Below are positions 14,201 to 52,900 of a stretch of DNA of 64,000 nucleotides, piece after piece (positions within the stretch are counted from its first letter, which is position 1; each line of letters begins with the position of its first letter). Source of the DNA: Astropecten irregularis (taxonomy: Eukaryota > Echinodermata > Asteroidea > Paxillosida > Astropectinidae); contig OZ020244.1 in assembly GCA_963971285.1 (NCBI GenBank), forward strand, positions 26,908,001 to 26,972,000, written 5' to 3'. The notes under the pieces are model-generated. The model searched no databases, had not been told where the DNA came from, and saw only the letters and a program-made list of their open reading frames with translations. The position numbers and the translations under genes were made by a program.

Positions 14201-17200
14201 GTCATCGCTGGAGTTTCCCCTTCCACGGTGTCTCCTGCGACCGTGTTTGCCTCCACCCCTTCGGCCGCCCTTCTTCCTGCCACCCCGTCTCCTGTCGTAG
14301 TCGCTGTCGTAGCTTCCGTCACTGTCTGAGGAGCGATGTCTTCGGCGTCTCCGCCTACGACCACGCCCTTCTCCATCTCCAGATCCGCCCTAAACACAAA
14401 GGTATGTTATAAAGTTGAGTTTATTCACACAATTAAGACATTAAATGTTGTCAGTAATTATATTATGTAATTCAGAATATTTCGATATTCTTATAAAGGG
14501 TAGTCTAGGATATTTCTCTTATCCAGGCTTGAAAATCAGAAGTGTGAACGATCTCCCCTTATTAGAATTGTACATGCATGTTATCCACTTGTCCACCCCA
14601 AACAGAAATGTAAAACATCGACATTAATAAGATTGACCACAAATATTTAGTTCGTTGTAGTCACTCAATTTCCCAATTATTTTCAATTCATATTTTTTTA
14701 TCTTGTGTTTGAATTGGTGCTTTTGGTTGAAATATTTCAAATAAACATATCATGGCGAGAGTTTAGAATAAATGATGTAGCTCTAAAAATGGAATCGGTG
14801 ACTCTTCTTTAAACATCGTCTACAGCTCTGGCTCTGGCTTTGGCACTGGCTCTGGCTTCCACTGCATTTCTCACATCCATTTTAGATATTAAAATAGAGG
14901 CTTGTCTTTCTCCTGTTTTGGATGACCGTGTATGACAGAAGCCTAAGTCACTGTTTGGATAAAAGCCAATGAATGACAGTAGAAACACACTTTCATGCTA
15001 ATTTTACTTCTCTATCAATCACTTACATCGGAATCAGAATAACTGTCTGAATAACTATCAGATCGTCTGTGTCTCCTGCGACGCCTCCTGCCCCCTCTAG
15101 CTCCGCCTTCCCCCTCGTAGTCGTCGCCGTCCTGCGAGGACATGCTGTCGTCACTGTACCGCCTGCGGTGGTGACGCCGCCCTCTACGGCGACCTTTCTT
15201 CCCGTCGCCGCCCTCTCCCGGCGACCCGTCTGACCCACTAAAGTCATCGTCGCTGCCATGGCGACGGCGGTGACGTCGATGGTGACGTCGGCCTCTTCTT
15301 CCTTTTGGTGGGAAATTGGCGTGAAACGTCACGTGGTATCTCCCGGCTTATTATTTTTGTGTTTCGTAGCCTAAAGTTTTCTGAGTTTTTTTTTGTAAAT
15401 CCTTAGTTTTCCCGCGCACTACAACATCTAGGCTGGTTTTTTTTTTTGCTCGCGAGTATGGAGGCCTAAATCATTGTGTTTTGTTTCACGTAGACATGAC
15501 TGTATTAGTTCACAGTGAGTGACAGACAATGTAATGTTTCATGTGATGCGAAGTTTCAGTTCAATCCATTACATAATTCCTTCCAGTTGATTTTTATACT
15601 GCTATATCCTTGGGATATATAGCAGTATGTGAGTGGTTTCATGGCTTCTGACCGCCAAATGAACATAGATAATTGACTATTAGGAACACCACCAACATAG
15701 GGCTGGATAGCGCAGTTGGTAAGATCGCTGGTATGGTATTCAGGAGGTCGCAAGTTCGAATACCGCTTCAGTCAATTTTTCAAGTTCACTTTTCAGTGGC
15801 TTTATCAAAATGATAGCTGCTTCGAGCAGGCAACAATGACATAATGCTCTTAATTTTACATAAGGCGCCCTGGACGAATAGAAATGAACTGATACTTCGT
15901 GTATGTTATATGACTACGCTATATTATGATGGTGACAAAAATGATTGATGTGATATTAAACATGAAAGTAATACTACTAGGTCGTTATATACATGAAGAT
16001 TATAAACAAGGACTAACTCTACTAAATGATTATTCAGACCAAATTTTAGAGAAGTTTCAAAACAGGTTAGTAGAAATACAAAATACGTCACCTTGGGGTA
16101 ATATTCAAAAACTGAGAGATTAAAACAAAGAATGGAAAGACAATGTAAAGAATGTTCTCACTTGAATCGTCACTATCGGAATAGTCCGATGAGTCGGATG
16201 ACGAGTGACCCCGATGACGTCGTGACCTGTGGTGGCGCCCTTTACGTTTCCTGTGCCCGTCCTTTCCACCACCCTCCACTGATGAGTCACTCTCGTCCGA
16301 GTATGAGCTAAAATACACAGAGAATGAGAAGTAACAGTTAGTATACCTAAATAAATCATTATTGCAACTAAGGGAGAATTGCAAAAGTTTTTATTTTTCA
16401 ACAAAATAATGTACATGTATCTATAACATCTGTAACAATTTTACATCTTTTGCAGCATGCACATAAATTGGATACGAATGCACGACGGGAGTCATTTAGG
16501 ATTTGCATGTGTACTTATATTAATTATTAACTATTCAAGGGTGATTCTGTTTCAAAATGCTCATCATGTAATCTAAAAGCTCTTTGCGAAAGCACCAAAC
16601 TATATGGACAAAATAAACAAATGTCAAATGAATTATGCCAAGGAGTACTGTGTAGCGATACAAACATTGAACTTTTTAAGTTCGAAAACCAAAAATGTCT
16701 TCAATTTAATTTTGTTCACAAGCGCTAATTTGTCATCAAAATGTGTGCATATGCAACAAAATGTTTAAACTTTAAGGAGGGTTAGCATGTGTGGCGTGGT
16801 GTTATTTTTGTATAATAAAAGGATTCTGTTTTACTGTCAGTGTTTGTTAATCAAACTAATTTGTACCTATATCTCCTCCGATGGCGTCTTCCTCCTTTCC
16901 TCTTCCCTTTTCCTGACCTCCTAGAATCCTGACTGTCATCATCAGAGTAGCTACTATACCTCCTCCTACCTCTCCTAACCCCTCGTCTCCTACCTCTCCC
17001 TCCACCGTCCCTGCTATCATAACTTCCATCACTGCTACCGTCATCATCGCTGTAATCACCGCGATGCCGACCGCGATGGCGTCGGTGACCGCGACGTCCA
17101 CCGCCCCGTCGCCGTCCCCCACGGCCGTGCTGACGGCTGTCGTCGCTGTCGAATCCCGTACCGGAGTCGCTCCCGCTGTAGGACCGGCGACGTCTGTGCC

Positions 17201-20200
17201 GCCTGCGGCGTCTGTGATGTTTACCGTCTTCATCTAGAAAAATGAATCGCCAAGAAAAAGGAAAGTCATTAGTTCTATCTGGTATTTTGGCAAACTTATT
17301 TCGTGGCTTTTCAGAAGCATTCCTAACAGCCCCAAGCCCCTCAAACTTCTACAGGCAATTCTATCGAGTTTTGGCTTGTTTGGTACCAAACAGTATAGGA
17401 CCTGTTGTTGGACTTTGTTTGAGTCAGTACCGAAGGTCCAGGAGTAGGCCTACACTGTTACTGAAGAGTAAGGCATGAGACATGTAGAAACAAGTGTTGG
17501 AGTTTGTGGCAGTGCGTTGGCATTGATTTTATTTGTGGGTAAGGCTGCCCATGGACTATAGTACAGTTGCACAGGAAGTTGTTGTGGTGCACTTGTGTGA
17601 TGAAAGGCACTGTGACATTTTGTTAAAAGCCATTGTGGCATTAATAAGGAAGATAAGAGGAATCTCCACCAATTCAAAATTAGCTGAGCTTGAAACCATC
17701 CAAATTGTTTCCCAAACGAACGGTCCAAAACAAATTTCACAGACGGAAAAGTAATGTAACAATCACCTGAGTATGAGCTTTCGGAGCCGTCCCAGCTACG
17801 GCGCCTGCGTCGCCGGCGCACCTTCCGTTCCCGTCTCGTCCCTCCAGCACTGACGTAAGACTCGACCGACTCGACCGAGGTGGAGCGATCCCCAGATCCA
17901 TGACGCCCTCTACGACCATGCCTCTTCCTTCTCCTCCGGCCTACCTCCCCTTCTTCCAGGATGCTGTTTCCCATGCCGCTTTCAAAACTGTCGCTGTCGC
18001 TGTATCGACGGTGGTGGCGCCCTTTACGTCTGTGCAACATTGATAAACAATTAAATTAATCCAAAGTTATCCCCCCTTTTTTTTTTACAGAGCTCCACGA
18101 GTGCCATTCCACTTATCCAGATATCCACATTTATCTCGCCAAGTCGACTTTTGGAGTGGTAAAAGTCGTTTTGTCTCAATAATTATCTCAACAAGATGAC
18201 TTTAAGGGAAAACGAAAATTCAACTTATCCTGATAATGTATCTGGCAAGTCAACGAAGTGCATCTAAAAAGTCGTTTTATTTTGATGAATAACGTCAGTT
18301 TTATTAAGAAGTATTTACAAGCTATCAGGACAAGTTGACTGCCTTCTTTCAGTAAGTCGTCATGGCGAGATAACTTATCAAGAAATGCCGACTTCTTAGT
18401 TTTCACTAAGTCATCCTGTACGAATAAATTATCTCGATATGTCGACTTTTAGGGCTTAATAAGTCGACTTGGTGATATAAATTATGTAGTTATCTGGATA
18501 AGTGGAATGGCACTCATGGAGCTCCGTACTTTTTTTTACAAATGCATGATCAGTCATATAGGCCTACGATACTCCAATCGTGTCAAAATGCATGTCGTTT
18601 CAAGGTGCACATTTTACAGATGATAATGCGTGAGAAACAATGGCAAGCAATCTTGATTAAGGGAAAACGGATTTTCTTCGACGGATTGGAATTTCTCATT
18701 ACTCGCCACCATGACCACAACTTACCCTTTGCGCCTTCCCTCTTTCCCGTAGTAATTGTTGTTGTTGACATCAGCACTCTCAATGCTCTCTTCATAAGCA
18801 CTGTCTCGAATCTTTCGTCTCGAAGCTGCATCGGTTGAAAGTGGATGGAAGTATTAAGCAGTGTTGACGAAACGTTATACTAAACAGGACCATTGATACG
18901 TTGTGAGCGGAACTGCTAGTGAGTTATTAGAAGTTTCACAGTATAAGACAACACTGACATCTCAGAATTAAAGAAGTTTGCCATAGTTAGGTTATTATGC
19001 AAACTTACACTGAAAGCAATTCACTTGACGAGACAAAACAATAACCTTGACCGAAGAACTACATATAAAAATCACTGTGAAATATTGTGCACATACGCCA
19101 TCAACCTGTTTTCCTTTTAAGGCAAAAAGTAACAATCTATGCCTACTGTATATGCTAAGATTATCATCAAAGAAGCACAAGGGAAACTGACTGGATTAAT
19201 TCGAAGTCATTGAAAAGTGACAAAGGGAAGAAAATTGACTGGAAAATATTTTCTTTGTTCAATTCTCAATGAATGTACCGAGTTTCTTAAAGGTAATAGA
19301 TGTATTATACTTTGTTTTTTTTTTTTTTCAAAGAAATGCAGATTCGTGGGCAGAAAATACCTAGGAGATAAAGTAACAGTCATCTGCGAAATTTTCAGTC
19401 CCATACGGTTCCCCACTTTTTGAGAAAACAGTAAAAAAGTCTTTTAAGCATTATTTTTTATCTTTGGAAGATCAAAATTGTTTTTGGTCAATGTTTTTAC
19501 TCTTTTCTGGATAAAAACAGTATTTCAGCCCCAGGCAGAAATATTTTAACGGCATGTTTCTACAAGCACCAGCTTTCTACCCTGTAAGTAATAGGTAAAT
19601 CTGTGACAATTTCTGTTTCGGTATGCAACCAAAGTAACTATGATAACAAAGTAACTTTAATGAGACCATCAATTTACCTTTGACGATTTCTCCCTTTTCG
19701 TCCATGATGTATTTCTGCCTTGAGCTAACCCAGTCATCTAGCTCCTCATCCTCGGCCAATCCTAGGATCTTCCTGGCTAGCTTGTCATCCTTCTTCATCT
19801 CCTGGTATTCCTCTTCCGTCACGAAGCAGAGGCGCTTCACCAGCTTGCCGTCTGCTCCACGCACGTACGTCTTGATTTGACGCCTTGTCTGTGCTGTATC
19901 GTCAAGAAGAAGAAAAATAGACAGAAATCTGTTTCAGTCTCGGTTGTATTTATACTAATCGAAAATATCAGTCTGGGCGTGCACGTGCAGAAGTAACGGA
20001 TAATAGTAATGGTCACAGAACAGCACACACACACTTTGATCCCGCCATAGAGTAAGGAAGAGAGAAACTTGCACTGATCTTCATGAATTAGGATTGCCCA
20101 AACTGTCAGATAAACTACAAGCTAGAAGGCGTGTCTGAGTATGCTGAGTATGGCACAACATCCGTCATCCAGAACTATACTAGCAAGTAAAGTCATTCTC

Positions 20201-23200
20201 TGTGAACCACGCCACGGAACAAGAAAACATGGTAGAAAGCAAACAAACTACATTAGCATGATGAAGAGGGACACTGGTATAGACAGTATCAAGGAGCTAA
20301 GGACTGTCATGTTGGATAGAGTGGCCTGGATGGGATATGTTCATGATGACCGAGCAGGCATTGGCTAAATCATGCCTAATGTCTTCTTGACATAGTAGTA
20401 GTAGTAGTAGGAGGAGCTAAGGACTGCCATGCTGGATAGAGTGGCCTGGATGGGATATGTTCATGATGACCGAGCAGGCATTGGCTAAATCATGCCTAAT
20501 GTCTTCTTGACATAGTAGTAGTAGTAGTAGTAGGAGCTAAGGACTGTCATGTTGGATAGAGTGGCCTGGAGGGGATATGTTCATGGTGACTGAGCAGGCA
20601 TTGGCTAAATCATGCCTAATGTCTTCTTGACATAGTAGTAGTAGTAGTAGTAGTAGAAGGAGCTAAGGACTGTCATGTTGGATAGAGTGGCCTGGAGGGG
20701 ATATGTTCATGGAAATCATGGTGACTGAGCAGGCATTGGCTAAATCATGCCCAATGTCTTCTCGACGATTAAAACAAAGTCACGATAAATTTATGATGAA
20801 ACTCGAAACCGATTCAAGTTTTCACAAACCATATTTTTTTTCTTTCTCAGATAGCTTATGCTAAAATAACACCTAATAGGACGGACGTCATTTTTTGCAT
20901 TTGAATGTTTTCTAGATTGTGCCCGATTAGTGTGTCATTAACTGGTCCCCTTACCTTTCTTGGCCTTCTTAGCCAATTCCACTAGGTACCTCTTCTGCAC
21001 CTCTTCCACCACTTTACGATGTTCCTGGGAAAATAAAAAACCATACCATTATGTTATTCTCAAACATCTAGGTCTATACTTTGAACATCTTTACCGTTCG
21101 AAGAAAAAAGCGTGTGGAATTCAAACATAAATGTCATACACGTAGAAAGTTGTAGAAACCTCAAGTTGTCCTGTCATTTAAAACCACAGACACGAAATCA
21201 TATCATTGGCAAATTTCCACTCAACACTCAACACGTAAACTTTTGAAAAGTTTTAAAGTCTTTCAAAAATTGTAGGTTCTTTTGAAATGAGAGTGTGGTT
21301 GTTGGCTAGAGTAATATGTGTGTTAGCATGCATAATTTGTCATTAACAAGAATTCTCAAGGGCCTTTATTCTGAATGTATCATTTACCACTTCAATGATG
21401 TCCATTGTCTGCTTGATGTACCAATAACTGTGCCGAAAACCACCACCAACGCGAAGGTATTTATGCTACAAACAAATAAACAAGTAAATAACTAAGTTAA
21501 CAGTTACCACATCTTAACATATTGAAAGGAATTAAAAGGAAGCATTATACACTTATTATATCCTAAAAAGAACGATTGGTAAAAAGGTAAAGTACATGCA
21601 AGTACTGAGATTTTCCCCCACCATTCCGTGATGTGTATACATTTTTCTTATCCTTTTGATTCTATAAATCTTGCCAAATAATGTCAAACGAATTATATAT
21701 TGCTGCTGGTTGATTTTTCTGCTGGTTTATAATGATCCAGTCTGTGCTTATTCATATTATTTCCAAACTTTCACTGTCAGGAATCGATAATGATCCCGTA
21801 TCGGTTTTTTTAGGAGGGATGGGATCACACAAGGTTCCCACGCACACCAAGCGATCAGGACCACAAACAATAAGTTCGAGAGGGCGCTTTGCCTTTCGCA
21901 TTCAGACCCAAGTCGATAAAAATTAACGACCATAAATTGAGTGGCCATGAATATTCGCTGCATGGCAGACACCCAAACACCCTCACGCCTCAACTGCTCT
22001 TTTGTTACACAACCCAAAGACTACCAAATACCCTCAGGGTGAGAAAATTTCATATGATTGTATAATATTGAATAATGGATTGTTTGGGATGCTGCTTATA
22101 TACAGTACCCGTTCGCAAACAGCGTGGTCGGTCTGAAGCTGGCAGCGAAAACATTCGTCTGGCCCCAGAGGCTGGAGGACAAAATAATTAACTAATATTA
22201 TACTCATCGCAATAAGTATGGCAAAATACAACAGAATAAACTGTAAAGTCAGAAAGTGTCTCCAGCTTTTCAACTTATCAAGGATAATGTCATATATAAA
22301 TGTTAGGCCTAAGTGTTTTTGTTTCTTTTCAATAGACCAAACTGACTTTCCATGAAACTTTTCAATCAAGTTGGTCTGACCATTGTAATGTTTGACCTCG
22401 TCACTTGGACGATTTAACTTGTATGGTCGTTAAGGATGGCTGTCCTTTTTTGTTCTTTATCCAAATCAAGATTGAAGAAATTCGTCCTTGCTTCGTATTA
22501 TGGAACTAAAGTCTGATGCAGGAGAACTTTGCTGTGGATAGTGGTAGGCGGTTCACTATTGAACATTTTCTTGCCACAGTCCGACCGAATTGAAATAGTC
22601 TAAGAGACGAAAATGCTAGTTAGAATCGTGCTATCACAAGTGCTAGACCCTAACACTAGAAGGCCTAGTCCGATTTCACCAAACCCTGAGATTAATCTTA
22701 ACTTTGAGTTGTCAATAATTATCCCCATGGTGATTTGTATTGTGATATCACACTTTGCTTAGTAATAAAGATTGATTTAGGATTTAAGATCAATCTTAGA
22801 GCTTCGTGAAATCGATCATTGGAATTTTCTTTTCTTTCTTGGATTTCAATTGATACAGAATTTGAAGGCGCTGTGAATGCACTAATTTCTATGTTAGCTC
22901 ATTACAAAATGCCAACCTTTGAAAAGTAACTAAGGTAAACGTACATAATCTCCTTCCTATATTTCACCATTCCACCTTCATTAATCTAAATTCCTCCATC
23001 GTTAACCAATAACTTCACATCACTGGATTTTTCGTCAAGTGTATGTGAGCAAAATATGTAATTCCTCTTATATTTTAAATGCTCTTTGAAATAGACGCCG
23101 ATATATGGATATTCAACATCCACTTAATATTAAGTTGATATAATAGGCCTGTTATGTTGGTTTATTTTTATTCTCGTTAAGTTATCTAAAGTGTTAAATT

Positions 23201-32041: not shown

Positions 32042-35000
32042 ATGGCTACAACATTTCATTTTATGGCGGAAACGCCGCCTGATTCGATGTTTTCTGAGAT
32101 CCAGACGCTGAATAAATTCAATAATGAGGTAAAGTTTTAATGTATAGAGTGTAGTCGGGACGTAGGCAGTATATTGTTTCAATTTTGTCGTGTCTGTTAC
32201 TGTATCTTCCGTCATTATCTTCTGTCATGACTGTGCTGTGTAGACGTCGTGAGTGGGCGTATTAAACTAACGTACGGTGACAGTCTGATGCACTATACAC
32301 TGCACTGCCAGTCGAGTCTGACATGGCATAGGGACATTAGGTCCATGTCCCTATGTCAGACCAAGGCCAGGGTTAGGATTATTGCAACTAGTTTTTACTG
32401 AAAAAAAAATAGATCACAATCTCACCGATTTTTGTTTCAGTTAATTGGCAGTTTAATGCGTGTGCGCTGTATAGTGTTAGGGCCTAGTACTGTTACTGTT
32501 ACTGTTAGTCTTGTTAATGTATTGTTAGTGTTAATTTTCCATTGTGTGCGTGTTACTTGTCATTCTTCATGTCACTGACTTCCCTCATAATCTCCCTTAA
32601 CGTTAAACTTAAACACTTAAAACCCTGCCAACTCTCCGGAACCTTAGCCGACATCAAAATGGATCTCAAACATGTCAAACAAACAGTTTACATATATGCG
32701 TGTAGGCCCCCTCGATCTGTGAGTTTGGAAACAGTGAAGTGTAATTCTCTTCTTCGAGTATAATGCTTTTTTTGTTTAAAACAGTTCATCTTCATTAGTA
32801 TTATGTACAGTATTTTGTCTGCTGTGTACTGCAATAACAGTAATTTACAGTATATATTCGCTGTTTGCTTTGTCTTTCAGCAATTCAATGAGGTTGTATC
32901 CATAGTGTTGGCATTCCTTCTGGACCCTGAAAAGGTACGTACTTGAGAGTTTTTACACAGAGGAAGCCTGAGACTAAAAATCAGCACATGACTTTCCCAT
33001 GATTGTTTATTAGTCAGTAAGCATTTGCTTCAATGAGATGACGATTCAGGCCAAGATTGACCTGTGCTAGATTTTGCAAAGCACAAAATTAGTGTCACCA
33101 TATTGTGACAATCACCCTTTGCTTAACAGCAATGGGAGACTTGTGAGAACTGGGGCCGATTTCATAAAGCTTTGCGACGCGTCGCAACTCGATTTTTGAC
33201 GCGTCCTAGCTGCGACGCGTCGCATCTATTCGGCGAGTCCATAGAGAAAGGATGCGTCTTAACTCTGCGACGCGTCGTAAGTTTTATGAAATCGACCCCC
33301 GGTCTTCAGGTCAACAGCGCACGCGCGCGCAATTGTGAGCATGTGCGCATCATTTTGCACCTGCGCTGTTGTGCGTGCGCGTGTGCTGTTGACTTGAAGA
33401 TCGGTTATCCAAAGTCTCCCATTAGGATTGATTTTAAGATTAGTCTTACAGTTTCTTAAAATTTACCCAAGATACTGTAACTTGTCACTACAGTATTTGG
33501 TATTCAAGAAATACAATTTGATGGAGTATAGCAGGCATAATCAAGCAGTGCTTGGTTGAATGGTCTCAGAACAAACTTGCCCCATGGATATAGAAAGGTT
33601 TGTCCTCTCCATTCCCCACCTCCCTGGCTTGTTTTTAGTGTCACTCTCAATAACCAAAACAGATCATGGATCAGTTGGGTATTCAGGATTGAACAAAGCA
33701 AATGTCAAACCAAACTTGTACTCAATGATATGAAATTTAGCATGTTGACAAAACAATAATTGTCCAACATCCAGTTAAACTTGAAACAGTTGCAGAGTGT
33801 CTGCAGAGGGCAAACTAGGGAGCCCTTTGGAGATCATAAATAATTGTTGATTGTCGTTTTTTTATATAGGCCGGTCAGTTGATTAGCCGGCTGGATGACT
33901 TTGCCCAAGAAGAAGGAGTCAGCGTAGCGCCTCTCAGGAATATAGTCCGTAGCCTCATCACCATCCTCAACAGTAAGTCAGAACATTAGTCTGTAGCCTC
34001 ATCACCATCCTCAACAGTAAGTCAGAACATAAGTCCGTAGCCTCATCACAATCCTCAACAGTAAGTCAGAACATTAGTCCATAGCCTCATCACCATCCCC
34101 AACAGTAAGTCAGAACATTAGTCCATAGCCTCATCACCATCCCCAACAGTTAGTCAGAACATTAGTCCATAGCCTCGTCACCATCCTCATCAACAGTAAG
34201 TCAAAACATTAGTCTGTAGCCTCATCACCTCAACAGTAAGTCAGAACATTAGTCCATAGCCTCATCACCATCCTCAACAGTAAGTCAAAACATTAGTCCG
34301 TAGCCTCATCACCATCCTCAACAGTAAGTCAGAACATTAGTCCATAGCCTCATCACCATCCTCAACAGTAAGTCAGAACATTAGTCCATAGCCTCATCAC
34401 CATCCTCAACAGTAAGTCAGAACATTAGTCCGTAGCCTCATCACCATCCTCAACAGTAAGTGACAACATTAATCCATAGCCTCATCACCATCCTCAACAG
34501 TAAGTGACAACATTAGTCCATAGCCTCATCACCATTCTCAACAGTAAGTCACAACATTAGTCCGTAGCCTCATCACCATCCTCAACAGTAAGTCAAAACA
34601 TTAGTCCATAGCCTCATCACCATCCTCAACAGTAAGTCAGAACATTAGTCCGTAGCCTCATCACAATCCTCAACAGTAAGTCACAACATTAGTCCGTAGC
34701 CTCATCACCATCCTCAACAGTAAGTCAGAACATTAGTCCGTAGCCTCATCACCAACCTCAACAGTAAGTCAGAACATTAGTCCATACCCTCATCACCATC
34801 CTCAACAGTAAGTCACAACATTAGTCCATAGCCTCATCACAATCCTCAACAGTAAGTCACAACATTAGTCTGTAGCCTCATCACCATCCTCAACAGTAAG
34901 TCACAACATTAGTCCATAGCCTCATCACCAACCTCAACAGTAAGTCAGAACATTAGTCCATAGCCTCATCACCATCCACAACAGTAAGTCACAACATTAG

Positions 35001-38000
35001 TCCATAGCCTCATCACAATCCTCAACAGTAAGTCACAACATTAGTCCATAGCCTCATCACCATCCTCAACAGTAAGTCAGAACATTAGTCCATAGCCTCA
35101 TCACCATCCTCAACAGTAAGTCAGAACATTAGTCCGTAGCCTCATCACCATCCTCAACAGTAAGTCAGAACATTAGTCCGTAGCCTCATCACCATCCTCA
35201 ATAGTAAGTCACAACATTAGTCCATAGCCTCATCACCAACCTCAACAGTAAGTCAGAACATTAGTCCATACCCTCATCACCATCCTCAACAGTAAGTCAC
35301 AACATTAGTCCATAGCCTCATCACAATCCTCAACAGTAAGTCACAACATTAGTCTGTAGCCTCATCACCATCCTCAACAGTAAGTCACAACATTAGTCCA
35401 TAGCCTCATCCCCAACCTCAACAGTAAGTCAGAACATTAGTCCATAGCCTCATCACCATCCTCAACAGTAAGTCACAACATTAGTCCATAGCCTCATCAC
35501 AATCCTCAACAGTAAGTCACAACATTAGTCCATAGCCTCATCACCATCCTCAACAGTAAGTCAGAACATTAGTCCATAGCCTCATCACCATCCTCAACAG
35601 TAAGTCAGAACATTAGTCCGTAGCCTCATCACCATCCTCAACAGTAAGTCAGAACATTAGTCCGTAGCCTCATCACCATCCTCAATAGTAAGTCACAACA
35701 TTAGTCCATAGCCTCATCACAATCCTCAACAGTAAGTCACAACATTAGTCCGTAGCCTCATCACCATCCTCAACAGTAAGTCAGAATGTTAGTCCGTAAT
35801 CTCATCACCATCCTCAACAGTAAAGTCACAACATTAGTCCGTAGCCTCATCACCATCCTCAACAGTAAGTCAGAACATTAGTCCGTAGCCTCATCACCAT
35901 CCTCAACAGTAAGTCACAACATTAGTCCGTAGCCTCATCACCATCCTCAACAGTAAGTCACAACATTAGTCCATACTCCATAGCCTCATCACCATCCTCA
36001 ACAGTAAGTCAGAACATTAGTCCATAGCCTCATCACCATCCTCAACAGTAAGTCAGAACATTAGTCCATAGCCTCATCACCATCCTCAACAGTAAGTCAG
36101 AACATTAGTCCGTAGCCTCATCACCATCCTCAACAGTAAGTCACAACATTAATCCATAGCCTCATCACCATCCTCAACAGTAAGTGACAACATTAGTCCA
36201 TAGCCTCATCACCATTCTCAACAGTAAGTCACAACATTAGTCCGTAGCCTCATCACCATCCTCAACAGTGAGTCAAAACATTAGTCCATAGCCTCATCAC
36301 CATCCTCAACAGTAAGTCAGAACATTAGTCCGTAGCCTCATCACAATCCTCAACAGTAAGTCACAACATTAGTCCGTAGCCTCATCACCATCCTCAACAG
36401 TAAGTCAGAACATTAGTCCGTAGCCTCATCACCAACCTCAACAGTAAGTCAGAACATTAGTCCATACCCTCATCACCATCCTCAACAGTAAGTCACAACA
36501 TTAGTCCATAGCCTCATCACAATCCTCAACAGTAAGTCACAACATTAGTCTGTAGCCTCATCACCATCCTCAACAGTAAGTCACAACATTAGTCCATAGC
36601 CTCATCACCAACCTCAACAGTAAGTCAGAACATTAGTCCATAGCCTCATCACCATCCACAACAGTAAGTCACAACATTAGTCCATAGCCTCATCACAATC
36701 CTCAACAGTAAGTCACAACATTAGTCCATAGCCTCATCACCATCCTCAACAGTAAGTCAGAACATTAGTCCATAGCCTCATCACCATCCTCAACAGTAAG
36801 TCAGAACATTAGTCCGTAGCCTCATCACCATCCTCAACAGTAAGTCAGAACATTAGTCCGTAGCCTCATCACCATCCTCAATAGTAAGTCACAACATTAG
36901 TCCATAGCCTCATCACCAACCTCAACAGTAAGTCAGAACATTAGTCCATACCCTCATCACCATCCTCAACAGTAAGTCACAACATTAGTCCATAGCCTCA
37001 TCACAATCCTCAACAGTAAGTCACAACATTAGTCTGTAGCCTCATCACCATCCTCAACAGTAAGTCACAACATTAGTCCATAGCCTCATCCCCAACCTCA
37101 ACAGTAAGTCAGAACATTAGTCCATAGCCTCATCACCATCCTCAACAGTAAGTCACAACATTAGTCCATAGCCTCATCACAATCCTCAACAGTAAGTCAC
37201 AACATTAGTCCATAGCCTCATCACCATCCTCAACAGTAAGTCAGAACATTAGTCCATAGCCTCATCACCATCCTCAACAGTAAGTCAGAACATTAGTCCG
37301 TAGCCTCATCACCATCCTCAACAGTAAGTCAGAACATTAGTCCGTAGCCTCATCACCATCCTCAATAGTAAGTCACAACATTAAGTCCATAGCCTCATCA
37401 CAATCCTCAGCAGTAAGTCACAACATTAGTCCGTAGCCTCATCACCATCCTCAACAGTAAGTCAGAATGTTAGTCCGTAATCTCATCACCATCCTCAACA
37501 GTAAAGTCACAACATTAGTCCGTAGCCTCATCACCATCCTCAACAGTAAGTCAGAACATTAGTCCCTAGCCTCATCACCATCCTCAACAGTAAGTCACAA
37601 CATTAGTCCATAGCCTCATCACCATCCTCAACAGTAAGTCACAACATTAGTCCGTAGCCTCATCACCATCCTCAACAGTAAGTCACAACATTAGTCCATA
37701 CTCCATAGCCTCATCACCATCCTCAACAGTAAGTCAGAACATTAGTCCATAGCCTCATCACCATCCTCAACAGTAAGTCAGAACATTAGTCCATAGCTTC
37801 ATCACCATCCTCAACAGTAAGTCAGAACATTAGTTTGTAGCCTCAGCCTCATCACGATCCTCCACAGTAAGTCAGAATGTCAGTCCGTAACCTCATCACG
37901 ATTCTCAACAGTAAGTCAGAATGTCAGTCCGTAACCTCATCACGATTCTCAACAGTAAGTCAGAACATTAGTCTGTAGCCTCATCACGAGGCAGCTTTCT

Positions 38001-40937
38001 TCATTTAAGAGGGGGCCAGAGCGGCATTTGGTATCCTGCACCACTGTGTAGTTTGTTGAGTAATACGTGGTTCATGATCCAGTCCCCCTTTGGAGACTCT
38101 GGTAATGCATGGTAAGCAGCTCTACACTCTTGCGTGGTATGTGCACAAGATTCAGGTTAACATGGTTAAAAGTTGACTTTCTTTAATAGCAATTCTCCAT
38201 TTGTTTGTGTCCAGATGCAGTCAAGAGGAACATGACACCAGCTCAACTAAAGGAGGATCTTGTTAATCTCGGTACGTATCTGTCATTAATTCTGAAGACT
38301 CATTCAAATCATTTGGCTGTGGCAAAAAAAAAAAACCAGCAGAGTGGCTCAGTTTTGCCAACAGCCCAACTGTCTAGCAAACACCCACAGAGCTCTTCAA
38401 CTAACATCACTTTTGTATGTATTTCTGGGTTGCATGCAAGATTTTGTCTGTTGCTTTCTGTTTCAGTAAGCCTTCTGACTTTTGTACAGATTTATACACT
38501 ATCCATTTTCATACTTTTCTTGAACAGTACTGTGATAGCCTCATAATTCTTAGCCAAGCATTTGAAATATCTTCTGTTTGGAAATGGGCTACTTAATTTA
38601 CGCTGAATTTGAGGCTTCTTGCAAATCCAATGCAGTCTTATGAGTTTCTTGTGAGCATGCAGTTTGTCCTACCTAAATTTTGTTTTCTCAGTTAACATTG
38701 TTTAGTTTTTCTCCTCTTGTGTGCCTTTACTGAATATTAATGAATTTTGACCGGTAAATTTCTTGTAAAGGTCTATCTGATGAAAGATCCAGCCATCTGT
38801 CAAATCAGGTAAAATTATGCGGATAATTTTGGTAAAATTTAATTCATGACACAAGTATCATGTAACCAGTGTTACCCACAGTTGGACTGCAAACATCCAC
38901 TTAAAGCCCCTTTTAGCATATACTTCACACACAGTTGGCCTCCATATCCCACATACTTTGAGTACACATTCTCATAGCCCCTTTCAGTATACACTTCACA
39001 CACAGTTGGCCTCCATATCCCACACACTGAGGACCGGTTCTTTTCCAGATTGTAGAGTTTGATTTCACGAAGCACTCCGATCATCCGTAACTTTAGTTAC
39101 GAAGGATAACCATCTTTTCCTGCATAGAGCAGCATTATTGATAGTAAGTTGCGATGAGTTTAGTGAAATCGAAATCGACCCCTGGCCAACTACAATTGGT
39201 CTAACATAACTTGCCCCTTTAAGAACCCAGTTTGTGACCCTAGTGGGGAAGTCTCAATCCAAGGGTCTTTGTTTTTTCCTTTGATTCAGTGGAAGTCCAA
39301 TCTTGTGGGATTGTCCAGGACGGCCGTGGGTCAGACATTGATGGTCAACCAGCTTGTTGACATGGAGTGGAAATTTGGAGGTAATTTAACCGTAACCCTA
39401 ACTTGCCTACCACAATACATCACAGTGTGGTTTGCATGGTAATGCGTGGTTTACAATCCAAAGTTTGGAGACTGTGGTAGTGTGTGGTAAGCAGCTCTTG
39501 CCTCGTGTAGTAAGCGTAGAGAGGTACGGTTAATATTCTGTCCCCTGTGGAGACTGTGGTAGTGTGTGGTAAGCAGCAATTTGTCTTGTGTGGTAGGTGC
39601 AGAGGGTTGGGGTTAAGGAAAAAATATCTCCGACAATCAACCGTATTGAAGGTCATGTCTCTATATCTCTGTGATATCAATATGTTCAGAATCTTTCTTA
39701 GTCTTTTACTGCTTGAGTGCGGACAAACTGTTATTATTTGCAGCATTCACTGATTCAATGTTTGTGGTATTTTGTCCTTTAGTGACTGCAGCTAGTAGTG
39801 AGCTTCAGCAAGTCGGCAGTACTTTCCTACAGGTGAGAAACGTGTCAGTTGTTCGGGTATAATATGTGATGGTTTCTTGCCAGGGCATTGATGCTGTCTT
39901 CACAATTGTCAACCCTGATGACAACATTTTAGTCCCACCAGTCTATCCTTGTTCTAGCCTTGAGTTGATGTATTTGTTGATTGTCCTCGATCACACGAAC
40001 CAACACATAAACGAAGAGGTATATTTTATTAATGCAGGAATTCCCAGCAGAGGTTAACCCATTTATACCCCTATTATTTACCTTTTTCACAAGAAACAAG
40101 TTGCCAAAGAAACAAGAGTTGTAGGCCAACTTTGGCCCAGTAAAAAATTGCGAAGGCCTTCAAAACCCACTGACTTTGGATGGTATGTGTATGGGTTTGA
40201 GAGAGAAAAACATAAACTCTTATTGGCGTTTCTTCTTATTTTGTTCCTCTGCTGCAGTTGAAACTTGTTGTCAACAAGGGAAACAAGACAGAGAATGTAT
40301 ATATGGGTAGGTATAAAATTTAATCTGGTCCTTTACTCACCCTCTGGGAGAGAACTAAGTTGGCTTCTTGGATCACCAGTTTGAATTCAGAAAATTGGTA
40401 TTATTCAGATACCATTGTAGGCTGTACATGATAGGAGTAAAGAGTACTGCCCTGATAACACCGTGTCCTGAACTGCTGGATTCCTTTCTGAGCCCCACAT
40501 AAAAAGCTCAGTTTGTATCTTTTACAACTTCTGAAATTATGTAATTGAAACCACTCACATACCGCTATATCGCAAGGATATCATTTAAGATTCTTGCAAC
40601 ATTAGAAATGCTGCAACATGAGAAACAGTACATGGGGGATAAAGAGGATGCAGGTGTGAGTGGTTTCATGGCTTCTGACTGCCAAACAAACAAAGATAAT
40701 TGACTATTAGGGGCACCACCAACATAGGGCTGGGTGGCTCAGTTGATAGAGCGCTCTTATGGTATACCGGTGGTCGCTGGTTAGAATCCCGCTTCAGTCA
40801 AGTTTTTTCTTTGTTAACAATTCAATCAATATTTCTACAATTTATTTTCTTTGTGTTCAGAGCTTTCCTTGCCACAGTTCTACTCATTTCTACATGAGAT
40901 GGAGAAGGCTAAAATGAGTCTGGAATACTTCAGTTAG
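32042..40937 (+). CDS. COMMD7: COMM domain-containing protein 7
   Basis: Nine coding exons: 32042-32128, 32881-32934, 33870-33972, 38215-38271, 38771-38808, 39290-39380, 39783-39832, 40258-40306, 40861-40937. These give 606 nt and 201 aa, against about 200 aa in vertebrates. The start ATG has a strong context (A at -3, G at +4). Recognition rests on the protein sequence: an N-terminal helical half with NKFNNEQFNEVVSIVLAFLL and IVRSLITILNNAVKRN, then the COMM domain with VGQTLMVNQLVDMEWKFGV, LKLVVNKGNKTENVYM and LPQFYSFLHEME. This matches COMMD7 along its length. COMMD proteins form the hetero-decameric ring of the Commander complex, which works with retriever in endosomal recycling; COMMD7 has also been linked to NF-kappaB. 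All junctions are GT..AG and in phase. Oddities: intron 3 is filled by a splice-donor minisatellite and intron 8 carries a SINE. Confidence 0.95.
33152..33300. mobile_element. Foldback element, family 4, copy 1
   Basis: GGGGCCGATTTCATAAAGC at the left and TTTTATGAAATCGACCCCC at the right, with GCGACGCGTCGC motifs inside. A shorter copy lies at 52879-52971. Located in COMMD7 intron 2. Confidence 0.7.
33301..33402. repeat. Hairpin with alternating purine-pyrimidine (CG) arms
   Basis: Left arm GTCTTCAGGTCAACAGCGCACGCGCGCG and right arm CGTGCGCGTGTGCTGTTGACTTGAAGA are inverse complements around a 35-bp loop. The GCACGCGCGCGC runs can adopt Z-DNA. It directly abuts the family-4 element. Confidence 0.7.
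33943..37988 (+). repeat. 44-bp minisatellite copied from the COMMD7 exon 3/intron 3 boundary
   Basis: About 90 head-to-tail copies of a 44-bp unit: AGTCCGTAGCCTCATCACC, then ATCCTCAACAGTAAGTCAGAACATT. The first copy is the real exon end: the last 30 bp of exon 3 (encoding IVRSLITILN) plus 14 bp of intron including the donor GTAAGT. Variants (CCGTAG/CCATAG, CAGAAC/CACAAC/CAAAAC) recur in order, showing higher-order duplications: a period of 1680 bp (34300-35980 repeated at 35980-37660) and an inner period of about 484 bp. The 3' end is decayed (TCACGAT, TCCACAG). Confidence 0.95.
40655..40812 (+). mobile_element. tRNA-derived SINE, second family, copy 2 (COMMD7 intron 8)
   Basis: GAGTGGTTTCATGGCTTCTGAC, AATTGACTATTAGGGGCACC and CATAGGGCTGGGTGGCTCAGTTGATAGAGCGC (A box), then GGTTAGAATCCCGC (B box). 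Same unit as 15638-15785. It ends about 48 bp before the acceptor of the last coding exon of COMMD7, so the branch point of that intron lies within or next to the element. Confidence 0.7.
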
Positions 40938-44799: not shown

Positions 44800-46925
44800 T
44801 TACACCGTACCAAACAGGTCAGACATTAGATAGTCTGTGTAATGTCCTTTGATCATGTCATCTGCACTGTCATGCTCTGCCATCCAGCATGGTATGCGTC
44901 GCTTACGTACATCGTTATTCCTGGTGCCTGCATGGACGTTGATGTGACGGCCATGTATGGCGATCTCTCCTCGCTGACCGCCCTTACTGTCACTGTGTCT
45001 TGTCTTGAAGTGGACCTTTGTGTGCTGGAATTGGCCTGGGGAATGGTTGAGGGATCGATACAGTCAATCATTTTTGCAGAGGAAATTGACTTTTTAAGTA
45101 TATTTGGTATTAAAATGCTTCCAGTTAGGAGGGCCTGGCGTTTCCATCCTTGCTGGACCATTCTCTTAGCCTTTGAGAAAGATCCTAAAAGGATCTGCCC
45201 TCCTAACTCCAAGCATTTTTTTAATATATATTTCAGGTCATTATTTCGGCTGATGAGCAGTTTGCAGCACTTTATTACCTGTACTGATTATATTTGGTAA
45301 AATTGATACATGGAATTAATCATCATTAACTAAATAGAACCTTTGATGTTGTATGAAGGTGCATCATTATGTTTTGGTTGTTTGTTCTCAACTTTCAAAA
45401 CTAGAAGCAGATGGGTATTCTGCCTAGGTATTTTTCTGCACTGTGACAATCTGCATTCCCGGTACATGAATAATGTTCCCAATATGTATAATGTTCCCAA
45501 GGAGGTACTCGATAATTCTTTCATGAAAATGTGGAGAAGTTTAAGGTAGGTTCAAGTGGAGGATTCCATGTGCTTAAACTAAATATCAAATCTTGATTTC
45601 ATGTTTCTGTAAATTTATGGCAAATGGTCTGGCTATAAACCATTCATGTTAGTGATTCTAATCCTCGGACATGTCACAGTCATAAGGTTATTTACCGATA
45701 AGTCCATGGGCACCGTCTGATAACCCGCTACCGTCGTTCATGAAGAACCCCATGAAGCTTGGCTTCTCCTTGTTGCTGGGCGGCATCTTGTGTCTCACCA
45801 CTGTGAACTCCACCCCTCTCCTGGGCGAAACCACGGCCAGTCTGCCGTCCACTCTCACCCGTACCCCGCCCAGCTGTAGACTCCGCTTGCTGCCCCACTG
45901 TAAGGTGTGGTTGCCGTTGATGATGATGGAGGACGGGTTGAAGGACATCTCGCAGGCAGTGCTGCCCGGTGACTGGGCAAAGACACCGCCTAGCTCACCT
46001 ATGTAGGTGCGCTGTTTCTGCTTCTCTAGCTTGGTTCCGCTCTTCTTAGAGGACTTAGGGGATGGTTGAGCAATAATCCTTGCATTGATGAACAGACCTG
46101 AAGGTCGGTGTAATCATTCAGAAGGTATAGGTATGCATCGTGTTTATTTTCCTAAAAATATACCCTCCCAAAGACAACCGCTTGTAACAATAATGGCCTA
46201 TTGTTAAAGCGCAACTCCAAAACTTTTTCACATAATCCAATGCATTTTTGTTTTCAAGATTTCTGTGTGTGTAAAGACATGCTTGAATGTGAACTTCAAC
46301 AGTAGGACATTGTAGACAAAACATGACAAAATGGTTGGAAACTCCCCTATGTCATTAATAACAGCTTTTGAAATCCACAATTCTCTACCTAGCTCCTTAA
46401 AATGCCCAGGTTAACATCAGACAGAGGAAGTGCGCTCCCGTTGAAATTTGTTTCCTTAGTGTGTTCTCACTGTTCTGGGCTTTGAAAATGTACTGATTAG
46501 TGATTACAGCACCACTTACCTCAAAGTCAATCTGTAATATATTCAAAGTCATAAAATAACCTCAAGGGAAACTGACTGGAGAAATGTTGAGACATTGAAA
46601 AGTGAACAAAGAAAAACTGACTGGAGGAGGATTCGAACCAGCGACCCGGGATATCGATACTGTACCGGCACACTACCAAATAAGCTCAGACGGCATTAAA
46701 TAGAACATCGCACAGGCCGACTCCGTTGTTCATACAAAGCAGGCGATGTGTAAAGTTTGTTTTAAATGGACTCTTAATACAGCATTGATAAAAAAACTGA
46801 GTGAAACTGCTTACCTCTTCGTTTGTCCTTGATCAGACTGAAGACGTCATCAGCTTGGCCATGGATGTCAAAGCACAGTGAGAGTTGACTCTTGGGCACA
46901 TTCACCACAAAGTGGGGATCTCCGT
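44800..46925 (-). CDS. ITIH C-terminal domain with DPHF processing motif
   Basis: Three exons, residues about 1774-2022. It opens with DGDPHFVVNVPKS. In vertebrate ITIH1-3 the Asp-Pro bond of the same DPHF motif is cleaved and the Asp is esterified to chondroitin sulphate; keeping it suggests the same modification, which is inference. Further matches to the family are AHGLIGQF, split between exons 45696 and 45035 in phase 1, and IKGHYTDYL near the end. The stop TAA is at 44800-44802. Confidence 0.88.
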
Positions 46926-49900
46926 CTGCAAAACAAGTCAACCAAAATTTTTCTTATTTTTTTTCAGATATATCAATAACTTCTTTAGAGCTATACATTC
47001 CCACTCTTGTAGCTTTCGGGACTCTTGGTTTCTATTACACAAGGGCTCTACGTACCAACACCAGTTGTCTCATTCTTCCCATCACCACTTCCTCCCTGAG
47101 GGGTCACGGATGGCTGCTCCGGTTGGACGGGCTTCGGCAGAGGGCTCAGTGCTTCCCCAAGCCCTTCCTTGATGTCCATCGGCAGGGTCCTGTCCCATAC
47201 CCTCAAAACTGGCGGCCCACGAGACGCGCCCAGCATCTCCCGGACAGTCATCCTTGTGTAGGGGTTCAGATAGGTATAACGAAGGGAGGTATCCGTGATG
47301 TCACGCTGGAGACCAGGGGTGGGGCTCGCGGTGAGGTCCCTCTTTTGTTGCAGTGTCTGGATCATGATGTAGGCCCAGATGCGCTCGATCAGATCCTCCG
47401 GAATGGATGGGTCCAGGAGAATACGAGAGGGAACCTAGGAGGAAGAAGGAATCACCAACAAACAGTTCACAGGTAAAAATCATTACTCATGAGTCATGTT
47501 TGAACTTTCCTCTGGCTAATTTATTCTCAAAAGTAGCCAAAGCCATCAATATTTGTGTTTTAGATGCAACACTCTCAGTAAAAGGTTCAAGATCTCTGAC
47601 TGGCATGTGAACATTGTATATATAGCTCTCTAAATTCAAAAGAGTGAAAAATACCAGGCTCGTTTAAAATCGAGTTGTCGTTTATATGGCTCTTCAAAAG
47701 AAGTAGTGGTTATTTCACTCTTTTGGAGTGGTTTTCACTCTGGGCCAGAGTGAAAAATCACTCAAAACGGTGCAAACGTCACTCTAAAAAAGTGGAAGAC
47801 ATCTCCAAAAAGAGTTGACCCTAGTATGGCTCTTCAAAGAGTGGCTTTTCACTCTTTTGCATTAAGAGAGAGGAACGTAAACACCTGTTACTTTGTCCAA
47901 TAAACCAGCTCTGCAATCACAGAGATGAGTTAGAGTTGATGAAATTTTAATGCCACACTTACAATGGTGTCTGTGCTCGATGCAAGAGAGATCTCCTCAC
48001 TGGCCGTCTTGCCATACACGAAGGACCTCAGGGTGTGACTAGAGAGTCTGCTCTCCTCCAGTTTACCCACCACCACTATCTCAGACCCGTTGAAGTAGTT
48101 GGAGAAGAACCTCTCGCTGAGAGTGTTCGGCACCACGCCTTCAGAGTAGTAGAACTGGAGATCATACAGCAAAGGTGTGGCCACCTCATCGTAGAAGCCC
48201 TGGAAGAGTACGCTAGCATCAACCCTCTCAGGGATACGCCTGGCCACGCCGTGGTTGTTGAGAGAAAGACGGTTGAGGAAGTCATAATCCGCATCCTGAC
48301 CAAAGCCGAGACAGAAGAGAGAGTAGTCGCCGTTGATGGCATCCTGGACGTTGCGCTCTATTTCCTTGGTGTCGGTCTCACCGTAGGTCGGTTCGCCGTC
48401 CGTCAGCACGATCACCATAGAGATGACCTTTTCCCCTCCTCGAAGCTTCTCACCTTCTCGCCTCAGCATGTTGACACCTTCTAGAATGGCGCGGTTCAGG
48501 TTTGTGGCTGAAATGTATAAGAATTATACAACTTTCCCAAAATGCTTCTTAAAACCTTTAACTTAAAGAAGAACTCTATGTTGCTACTAATCAATGTATT
48601 TTCCACATTAATCAAGTTAAACAGGATTCCATCCAAACTTCGACCATTTTGCAACTTTACAGTAGGGCTTGACTATCTTGGCAAAAAACCTTTAAACAGT
48701 TTCTGTGAAAGTAATGACCTTGAAAAAAAAAATGCTCTAGATTCTCAATGTCTTCTCCACATAGTGTAGTGGTACTATAAATATAAGTACCGGTAGCAGT
48801 ACAGTAGTATTGTTAATGTGAAATTGTTGGATGTGCTGAAATAATTCCTACCATCCAAAGCCTCTAGATTATCCACGTATGTCTTGGCATAATCCACGTT
48901 GGCTTCCGAAGCCTCTACCATCCTATACCGGTCCAGGAACTCGACCCTGTTAGAGAAGGGCAAGATGTTGAATTTGTCTCCCGGTGATATCTCATCCAGG
49001 ATGGTCTTCAGAGCTGCCTTGACCTGGGAGAGTTTGGTGCCTACCATGGAACTGCTGATGTCGATGACGAAGATGACGTGCTTGCGGAGGACAGAGAGAC
49101 CGCTCGGGGAGAAGAACTGCACGAAGTAGTCATTCAGAACCTGAGGGGATGGAAGGATCGGACATAAAAAAGAAGATAAACTTTGTAGTCAGTAGTGAGA
49201 AACCGAAGTTTTGGGGCTGTGTTCGATGGAAGAACAAATGTGTGTGTTTGTGTACGTGTATACAAACCTCTCTATAAATGTGTGTGGATTCATCTGGAAC
49301 TGGACTTAACACTTTGTTATACGTATACGTATGCAACATGCTTATAAGCACAAACATTTGCTTTTGCATGAAAAGTCTTCCTTGATCAAACAGGATTACC
49401 AACAAAATTTTCATGTGATGTTTAGGGCTTTTGACATGAATTCGGCTATTGTTTGCTGAGCATAACATTCACAAGGAGTTTGGCTGGCATACTGATGTTG
49501 GCTATACCAATGGTTTTGGTGCTTAGGGAAATTTCGGTACTTAAGCAGCTCTATGAAATTGGACCCAGTATGCTTATATTTAATAATAATAATAATAAAT
49601 ACATTCTTAAATAGCGCTTCACATTGTAAACACAATCTCAAAGCTCTTTACAAATTTCTGGTTTACAGCCACTATTGCAGCCCTAAAGTTGAATTGAAAT
49701 GGCATTACAATGTAGCTCAAGGTACATGCTTGAGCCTCTTTCAGTTGCCAACTTAAGTTTATAGCTACATTATATTAACATACATTACATGTTACACGAC
49801 CTGAGCAAATTTGTCAGTTTTTGACCAAAAATTAAATTTGAAATGGAATTGCTGTTTCTCTGCGCCTTTTTGCTAACCATGAACAATACAGATTTGCTCA

Positions 49901-52900
49901 AGCAAGCACACATCTTCTTATCACACAGTGTTTGTCATTATACCACGACGTTTCATCAACATCTACACACCTTAATATCTCCAGCATCATCAGAGTGGTT
50001 AACATCATACTCCACGATGAAATCTCCCATGATACCTTCTTTGCTCAGCTGCTGTTGCTGCTGTCTGGTCGGCTGGTAGGACACCTGTTGCTTAGTGTCA
50101 CTAACTCGCGTCACTGGCTGAGGGAGACGGGCCGAGGTATCAGCCTTAGACCGGTCCATGAGGTAGGCATCAGCAAAACTAACCCCTTGGGGTTCTATTA
50201 TACTGACATCAACTTGTAAGTTGTCAACGACCTGGACATGATGTGTAAAAACAGTGTAAAATGACAGCTCATACTTATGACTAGGGTCATTTACGAATAG
50301 GAGTCTACCGGGTTCCGCTTCAGGCTCCCACGCTGTTTCGTGAAACCATTCTAAAACAACGGGTATCAAAATACTTAGAGTTAGGAGGGCCTGACGCGTT
50401 TCGAACCTAGCAGGATCTTTCTCAAAGAGCATAATCAAAATAGAGACTTTTGGTTGCGGTTCAGAAGTAAATTCTATAGTTTGAAAAGGAAAACAGAGCT
50501 TCAGCTTCAATGAAAACCACAACCTATTTTTTCAGTTTATGGATGTCAGAGCTGGAGCCTGAGCCCGAGCCTCCGTTTTGTAAACGCCACAGGTTTATTC
50601 AGATTTGATGGTTTTCAAGGTGAGAAGACAATAGAGGAAGGTGGAGTTTGCGGTAGCGTTATGTGACATTAAACACTTATAAATTTGAGTGTTTCTGAGT
50701 TACCTTTTTGTCCTTTTCAGAACCACACAATCTCACAAAAGAGTATACCGTTAATATCACATTCTATTACCTGGCCGGGATACAGGCCCAGATGTTGTTT
50801 AAAAACGCCCCGCCGTCTTGGCAACAGGATTTGGTATGTAAGCGAAAACTCCGCTGTGTTGCCAGGTTTCAGGTTCACAGAGGTAACAAAGACGTTGCTA
50901 TCTGGGTCACTGTAATGAAAAAACAAAATCAACAAACATGATGATACAAACATAACAAGTAAAACTAATATCAGTTACAGGGGAAGAACTATAGTGGTAT
51001 TGTGAAGTCATCAAGCCCCTTCCGGACAGAAAGCATCTACATCAGTTCGCCTCACGGCGTGAGAAAAATTCATGATTTCGAATTTGTTCGCCTTTATTCA
51101 TGATTGCTTTCGTCATTTCCAATGATTTGGGCTATTGTCCAACGGAATGCAACCATTATACAAAGGTCTGCATTGTTTACGCTAAGCTCCCTGCACACAT
51201 GACCCACCGGCAGATGAACTTTATTTAACCGGTAGGTGATGCCTGTAAAACAACAAAAAATCCCGGGATGAAGGTATAAACTGTAGGGTACCAGTATATG
51301 CTTACAGTTCAGTAACGAATCCACCTCCTTGTGCGAATTCCAGATTACCGCGCTGCAATGTGATGTTCTGACTCTTCTCATCAGCAACACCTTTGTAAGT
51401 CTTGCCTTCGAGGTTCCTGGTAAAACAAAACAGTATCAAAGAAATGTTTAATATCTTGAGAAACTCCCATGAAGTATCTTCAGTAACTTCAATGTGCACA
51501 CATAATGTGGCACTCTCCTGAGGACGGCCAGCTAGAGCACATTAGCTGAAACGTCGACATATTTTCTCTCACTGGTCCTTTTCAGGACCACACGCCTTCC
51601 AAAAGAGTGTTATACATGGTGTCTCCGCAAGTCTTACTCATTCTATAGTGTCTCCACCATGCAAAACTTACAGTTCAATAAAATTACATTTTAGCCAAGA
51701 ACGAAATACATCCAGATTTTATAAGAGCTCCAGTGATACAAGACTGATCAGTTCTTACTGGAGTAATGTTAATCCAAATCTAGATCAGGTCACTCTTTAG
51801 TTAAGTTTTCATTAAAGAAATTGCAAAAACAGAGAAAGGATGTTTTTGTTTTGCTGAATGGTTTACAAATCACAAGTCCATCTGGCTGGTTAGAATTCAA
51901 CTTTGTCAAATTTCTGGTTTCTCTCTCAGGCACAAATCAAGAACCGAACTACATCTTTACAACCACAAGAAACTAGAATGGCTTGAACGTACAGGGTGAA
52001 GTCTGTGATGAATGCTAGGAGAGGAATCTTTTGTCTAAAGACGGCCCAGCATGCCTTGGCTGCCTGGTTCTCCATGGTAGAACTGATGACGGTGGTAGCA
52101 AATCTCAGCACGATCTGGGACTCTACCCTCAAGCTCCTCGTCACAATACCATCCTGTATAAAGACAGCAAATAAAGCTAGAGATAAAATTACAGCGTAAA
52201 TGAGTTTCAAGTTGATGTCTGCTTTGTAGTTTTGTACAGTACTTATGGTTAGTAGCCTTTCCACACTATCTCCTTTTCGATCTGTGTTGAAACCAACCCA
52301 CATCCGCCCCGGTTCAGCCCTGTAAGTTTTTGAACCGGATCGAAGAGACGCAATTAACATTTACACTACGTTTTGGGTGAACCGGCTCACACACACGACT
52401 CATATCACAACGAAAAATGCAGTTTGGAACCGGGTTGAGATTTTCAACCCTTGTTGATTTCGATCCGGTAAGGCTGTCCTATACCCGGGTTGGCTCGGGG
52501 TTAAACATTTTCAAGTGTGAAAGGTGTTGAACAAAAATTTCGGGATTCGATCCAGTTCCAACCCCAAGATTTTGGATAGTCTGAAAAACCCTTAAGATCC
52601 TGCAGGGGACCACAGTTTATGCAGCATACTGCACTGGAATTTCTTCTTTATTAAATATTTAGTCATTATACTTTGTTGGTCATCAATTTATTTTGGAGGG
52701 TTAACTCACTGAACTTTCAGTCGCAATACTGAAGATGTCCGGTCTTGTTTCAATTCCAGGTATTGTTTGTTGTCCTGTATCAAACAATCATTAATAAGAC
52801 ATGTAGAATAAATATGAAATATAATTGCAACATTAAAAAAGACTAGAAAAATAACATTTTTAAATTATTTTGTACACAGGGGCCGATTTCATTTCAAGCT

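Follow-up and report, generated by a model that had tools for sequence, protein, structure and literature searches.

Tandem repeats that straddle a splice junction have been described in amphioxus and human. In amphioxus, the so-called mirages are minisatellite-like tandem repeats that span exon-intron boundaries in Adh3 and in the globin genes BflGb6 and BflGb9 (PMC3087553). In human, the CBS gene carries a 31-bp variable number tandem repeat (VNTR), c.1444_1467+7(16_21), in which 24 coding and 7 intron bases are repeated in 16-21 copies (PMC2630376). A 64,000-nucleotide stretch of the genome of the starfish Astropecten irregularis (assembly GCA_963971285.1, contig OZ020244.1, positions 26,908,001-26,972,000 of the forward strand; hereafter the window) contains a tandem array of this sort at an exon-intron boundary of the COMMD7 gene. 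The array is a very long case of the known boundary-repeat kind, from a phylum other than that of amphioxus or human. Its origin at a splice junction had been called unusual in a preliminary description of the window; such an origin is indeed uncommon, but the amphioxus and human examples (PMC3087553; PMC2630376; PMC5188458) mean that it has published precedents.

A single array at 33943-37987 on the + strand was reported by Tandem Repeats Finder (TRF), with a period of 44 bp, 91.4 copies, 92% matches and a score of 6680. This agrees with the roughly 90 copies and the coordinates given earlier, apart from an end placed there 1 bp further on. The similar units follow one another head to tail, as is characteristic of a minisatellite. 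When cut at the donor, the array resolves into 91 units of 35 distinct sequences, with a unit-to-unit spacing of exactly 44 bp in 82 of 90 cases and the consensus TAGTCCATAGCCTCATCACCATCCTCAACA/GTAAGTCAGAACAT. Unit 1 is the real boundary and matches the exon end at 33972, which bears out the proposal that the repeat unit is the exon-intron junction itself, with 30 coding bases followed by GTAAGT. Unit 1 recurs without change in seven further units, and the 30 coding bases are unaltered in 17 of the 91 units, counting unit 1. The GTAAGT hexamer is intact in 87 of the 91 units; the remaining four carry GTTAGT (one), GTGAGT (one) or GTAAAG resulting from a 1-base insertion (two). All 87 intact copies are on the + strand and none on the - strand; outside the array, the 59,948 bases counted in the window hold 11 on + and 15 on -, a disparity that excludes chance.

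The host gene was correctly named as COMMD7. Eight exons were joined in one frame (Table 1), and their product gives a gapless alignment to the COMMD7 chain 8f2r_G over its residues 29-199 (E 5.2e-59) and matches the Pfam entries COMM_domain and COMM_HN. The first coding exon was not found in one scan. The boundary previously labelled 'exon 3/intron 3' is real, but its number holds only if one coding exon further upstream is assumed. A search of the assembly with 88 residues from the last exons gave two matches, both in the window, and no second COMMD7 copy was found. The locus lies on one chromosome-size contig (39 Mb).

The resemblance to the amphioxus mirages extends to several features. 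In both systems the repeat unit runs across a genuine exon-intron boundary, intact splice signals are retained in many units (AG/GT in amphioxus), and the repeats undergo minisatellite turnover that leaves the edges outside homogenisation; the 44-bp COMMD7 unit also falls inside the 10-72 bp range given for Adh3 (PMC3087553). The CBS unit likewise combines an exon end with an intron start that includes the donor, in a proportion of 24 + 7 bases instead of the 30 + 14 of COMMD7. The systems differ in scale and in what has been recorded about them. The COMMD7 array belongs to an echinoderm and has 91 units, as against 6 and 3 units in BflGb6, and splicing and length instability were examined in amphioxus, whereas the COMMD7 array is known from sequence. 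The CBS repeat is polymorphic at 16-21 copies with a reported effect on activity, whereas the ~90 copies in COMMD7 come from one assembly. Among the published cases compared (amphioxus and human CBS), COMMD7 has the highest copy number. The Rogers model, cited in PMC3087553, similarly involves a tandem duplication that carries splice signals along; the COMMD7 copies, in contrast, sit inside an existing intron, with no new intron formed. No echinoderm boundary minisatellite was found in the open-access library searched, from which most subscription papers are absent; the papers listed for starfish intron minisatellites concern, to judge by title and abstract, abalone and sponge.

The middle of the array has been homogenised while its distal edge is divergent, the pattern of ordinary minisatellite turnover. 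Units 9-87 lie at a mean distance of 1.9 from the consensus, units 1-8 at 2.6 and units 88-91 at 6.3; individually, units 89, 90 and 91 stand at edit distances of 12, 7 and 5. A large block has also been duplicated: units 10-46 recur as units 48-84 at a lag of 38, with 32 of 37 units identical and 6 edits in total over ~1.6 kb (roughly 99.6% identity), indicating recent turnover. Given this recent block duplication, array length is likely to vary between alleles. These figures derive from unit-by-unit distances, which were used because a global alignment of units 13-50 with units 51-88 was poor (48 mismatches and 367 gap columns of 1864); the aligner had lost register within the repeats, and the copied block stops at units 46/84. 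An additional 11-unit period is visible, 22 of 80 units being identical at lag 11.

In the 30 coding-derived bases, codon positions 1, 2 and 3 (10 columns each) show 7, 10 and 6 variant types, respectively. There is no excess at the third position, which suggests that only the exonic copy is constrained. The commonest variable site is a CG in the exon, read across the 91 units as CA in 50, CG in 30, TG in 7 and CC in 4; this fits the decay of a methylated CpG, and the CpG observed/expected ratio is 0.70 in the window outside the array. Across the array, 6 unit-positions of the donor hexamer differ from the majority base. Compared with random six-column sets of the unit, this conservation of GTAAGT is not significant (P 0.10 for departing units and 0.36 for variant types), the P values being rough as the units are not independent. 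Selection keeping the donors was rejected as unproven on these values.

Among the donors of the array, only the join from donor 1 gives an open frame and the gapless COMMD7 match, and the joins from all 90 alternative donors reach the same TAG (33987-33989) after five residues. Because this stop is shared, the alternatives differ for the cell just in the amount of message lost, and an array-derived isoform that reads beyond the TAG is excluded on this sequence. Measured from the acceptor at 33870, donors 1-5 define exons of 103, 147, 191, 235 and 279 nt. Exons ending at donors after the fifth exceed the size usual for exon definition, and donor 1 would thus be expected to win in the main.

The array is best regarded, with good though not full confidence, as a near-neutral minisatellite that was seeded at the junction and is probably spliced past, exon definition favouring the first donor. 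A 44-bp stretch spanning the 3' end of the COMMD7 exon would have been tandemly duplicated. Unequal exchange, slippage or block duplication would then have expanded the copies to a minisatellite of 4 kb within the intron. The exonic copy would have been kept as coding sequence and the others would have been left as intron. Exon definition would pair the sole strong acceptor of the 103-nt exon with the nearest donor, that of unit 1, so that COMMD7 is still made. Only the first few downstream donors (those of the 147-, 191-, 235- and 279-nt exons) could give exons of ordinary size, and the products of any donor after the first, which carry the in-frame TAG, would be removed by nonsense-mediated decay. 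The array would be a passenger with a small cost at most, and its length would be expected to vary among individuals. For amphioxus, the Adh3 data and the globin reverse transcription-polymerase chain reaction results suggest that such repeats leave regular splicing undisturbed (PMC3087553). A function for the array is not supported.

Several points weigh against this account and bear on its rivals. Donor strength was taken as the energy of pairing with the U1 5' end. By this score the real donor is the weakest of the seven in COMMD7 and is equalled or surpassed by 87 of the 90 downstream donors (-5.6 kcal/mol or lower); leakage to the downstream donors is therefore plausible. When donors were duplicated in reconstituted splicing, the intron-proximal one is said to have tended to be favoured (work of Eperon et al. 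in 1993), a rule that predicts the wrong donor here, and the chief use of donor 1 is itself inferred from sequence. Donor columns -3 to +6 vary less than the rest of the unit, at 1.2 versus 5.0 departing units per column on average, with two columns (40 and 45 departures) accounting for most of this gap. In human CBS, enzyme activity is lower where the repeat number is higher (PMC5188458); boundary arrays thus need not be neutral, and some leakage may occur. The strength of the downstream donors beside the weak real one, the stop common to all 90 of them and the CBS effect would all suit a quantitative brake. In this scheme some pre-mRNA molecules would use a downstream donor, pick up the TAG and be lost to decay, and the number of units would tune the COMMD7 level, as has been suggested for the CBS VNTR. 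Most of the donors are too distant from the acceptor for an ordinary exon. Such a brake is also a reading of the sequence to which donor conservation lends no significant support, and the amphioxus precedent reports no disturbance (PMC3087553); it is considered unlikely. A length-tunable poison switch, by which a fixed share of COMMD7 pre-mRNA would be spliced from donors 2-5 or beyond to the TAG and degradation, is likewise improbable. If it were true, the abundance of one subunit of the COMMD/CCDC22/CCDC93 trafficking complex would follow from an array length that changes fast between animals.

It is possible that the array competes for U1 or affects exon definition, as the preliminary description supposed. 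The 4 kb of sites complementary to U1, all on the sense strand, might also act as a platform on which many U1 particles guard the transcript against premature polyadenylation or boost elongation, but the array holds no AATAAA, no ATTAAA and two AGTAAA, and none of six polyadenylation hexamers occurs in the remaining 227 bp of intron behind it. The guard against polyadenylation, put forward in the earlier account, was accordingly rejected for want of signals in this span. The pairing of the repeated donor is modest at -5.6, since 262 of 3561 other GT sites on the + strand of the window reach -5.5 or better, and its conservation is not significant; a U1 platform in general is highly improbable. 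The units could alternatively serve as small cassette exons or as recursive stepping stones, for every unit ends in an acceptor-like ...CATCCTCAACAG whose CAG overlaps the donor. In the two units examined, pyrimidines make up 0.67 and 0.72 of this motif, values within the 0.56-0.83 range of the eight COMMD7 acceptors. Its tract is T-poor, with 20% T in the one unit measured versus 40-60% in COMMD7 acceptors, and the longest pyrimidine run in that unit is 5 versus 6-11. The earlier statement that the donors have no matching acceptor is thus mostly right, save for the presence of this motif in each unit. A unit used as a cassette would make an exon of 43 nt, which is not a multiple of 3. For recursive (zero-nucleotide exon) splicing the expected geometry is ...AG/GT, but the units read ACAGTAAGT, that is, CAG/TAAGT or ACA/GTAAGT; splicing to this CAG rebuilds no donor, and recursive splicing was ruled out by the CAG/TAAGT overlap in place of CAG/GTAAGT. 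Neither use of the units is credible to more than a minimal degree. A further rival is an assembly artefact, the array being far shorter in the animal, or absent. Block copies with just 6 edits over 37 units are of the kind that assemblers can multiply or collapse, and a misassembly of one amphioxus case in the draft genome is on record (PMC3087553). The 35 distinct unit types, some of them private to one place, the divergent edge units and the position within a single chromosome-size contig speak for a genuine array. Unit variants and imperfect block copies together make a simple assembly artefact very unlikely.

Tandem repetition as such is common in this genome. In a small random sample of 13 stretches of 10 kb (130 kb), six contained TRF rows with a period of at least 15 and at least 4 copies, and none of the 21 such rows (some overlapping) carried the donor hexamer GTAAGT or GTGAGT on either strand. 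The special feature of the COMMD7 array is its place. A dimer of the unit was reported nowhere else in the assembly (475.7 Mb, 168 contigs). An origin from a mobile element was rejected on this ground, and the dispersed repeat that begins ~50 bp past the array shares no unit with it. A triple-GTAAGT pattern showed no genome-wide excess, with 998 + 529 (1527) matches versus 753 + 1057 (1810) for a reversed control, counts that do not tally boundary arrays as such. Among the matches listed, the triple-GTAAGT places belong to a different GTAAGT-rich satellite with a ~76-bp period and internal inverted copies, present at several places on contig C1 (L009-L016, for example G000:C1:1839720-1840355).

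Table 1. Features of the COMMD7 locus and its boundary array (window coordinates).
Feature	Position	Strand	Basis
COMMD7 exon, upstream of the source exon	32881..32934	+	Frame, COMMD7 match
COMMD7 exon supplying the repeat, 103 nt; acceptor TATATAG, donor ACA/GTAAGT	33870..33972	+	Frame, splice sites, gapless COMMD7 match across the 3' junction
Unit 1: last 30 coding bases and first 14 intron bases	33943..33986	+	Real donor, G+1 at 33973
Units 2-91 with a partial unit, period 44 bp: portion of the array inside the intron	33987..37987	+	TRF, unit list
In-frame TAG, common to every transcript passing the first donor	33987..33989	+	Alternative-donor joins; position read from sequence
Higher-order block A, units 10-46	34338..35966	+	Unit-by-unit comparison, lag 38
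Higher-order block B, units 48-84; copied recently from block A, or block A from it	36018..37647	+	Unit-by-unit comparison
Divergent distal edge: units 89-91 and partial unit ending CTCATCAC	37831..37987	+	Edit distances to consensus
COMMD7 exon after the array; acceptor TGTCCAG, partner of the donor	38215..38271	+	Frame, COMMD7 match
COMMD7 exon	38771..38808	+	Frame, COMMD7 match
COMMD7 exon	39290..39380	+	Frame, COMMD7 match
COMMD7 exon	39783..39832	+	Frame, COMMD7 match
COMMD7 exon	40258..40306	+	Frame, COMMD7 match
Last COMMD7 coding exon, with stop	40861..40937	+	Frame, COMMD7 match

Repeats of other types are found on both sides of the array. The intron before the source exon contains, at 33131-33423, nested inverted repeats whose arms measure 27 and 48 nt, together with a GCGACGCGTCGC palindrome. 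The segment at ~33140-33310 belongs to a dispersed family, with best non-self matches at 89-95% identity (40 of 3606 candidates were scored and matched), and looks like a small inverted-repeat element. The repeat behind the array, at 38039-38164, is a second dispersed family, whose best other matches have 77-87% identity over query positions 52-176 (40 of 750 candidates scored); it is tandem at some places, such as C1:15685819-15686744. Farther away in the window, TRF detected a tandem array of 120 bp x 3.8 with an internal AGT microsatellite at 20292-20766. On the - strand, inspection of open reading frame translations by eye revealed von Willebrand A-like and inter-alpha-trypsin-inhibitor heavy-chain-like frames at 46000-63600, apparently from several tandem gene copies, and frames rich in Arg-Ser-Asp-Gly repeats at 13770-17350, perhaps exons of one repetitive protein. 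Elsewhere in the assembly, a small contig contains a COX1 frame of 552 aa without TGA (L017, G000:C131:32162-33484), perhaps bacterial DNA, and a chromosome-size contig contains a COX1-like sequence with 7 TGA (L019, G000:C25:9951047-9952018), perhaps a nuclear copy of mitochondrial DNA. On a contig with mitochondrial genes, COX1 can be read with TGA as Trp and AAA as Asn; frames recognisable as nad4L and COX2 come after it, and before it lie 13 clustered tRNA genes, 9 of these on the opposite strand, and a - strand frame recognisable as nad1. This gene order is that of sea stars and suggests such a source.

If this anatomy holds, the COMMD7 locus is a natural experiment on how a donor is chosen among near-identical competitors in the same local context: the cell might take the first, that nearest the acceptor, or several in varying shares. 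Most of the array donors differ just in position, and any downstream choice would be readable as 44-nt steps followed by the TAG; the extreme copy number thus makes donor choice testable by RNA sequencing. With this locus, boundary minisatellites, known from amphioxus and human, are recorded in an echinoderm as well. It also sets a coding segment beside a large pool of drifting copies, from which changes could return to the exon through gene conversion. Its value would lie in this donor-choice experiment, and not in a new mechanism; the array, most likely a passenger close to neutrality, has a testable chance to act as a brake on COMMD7.

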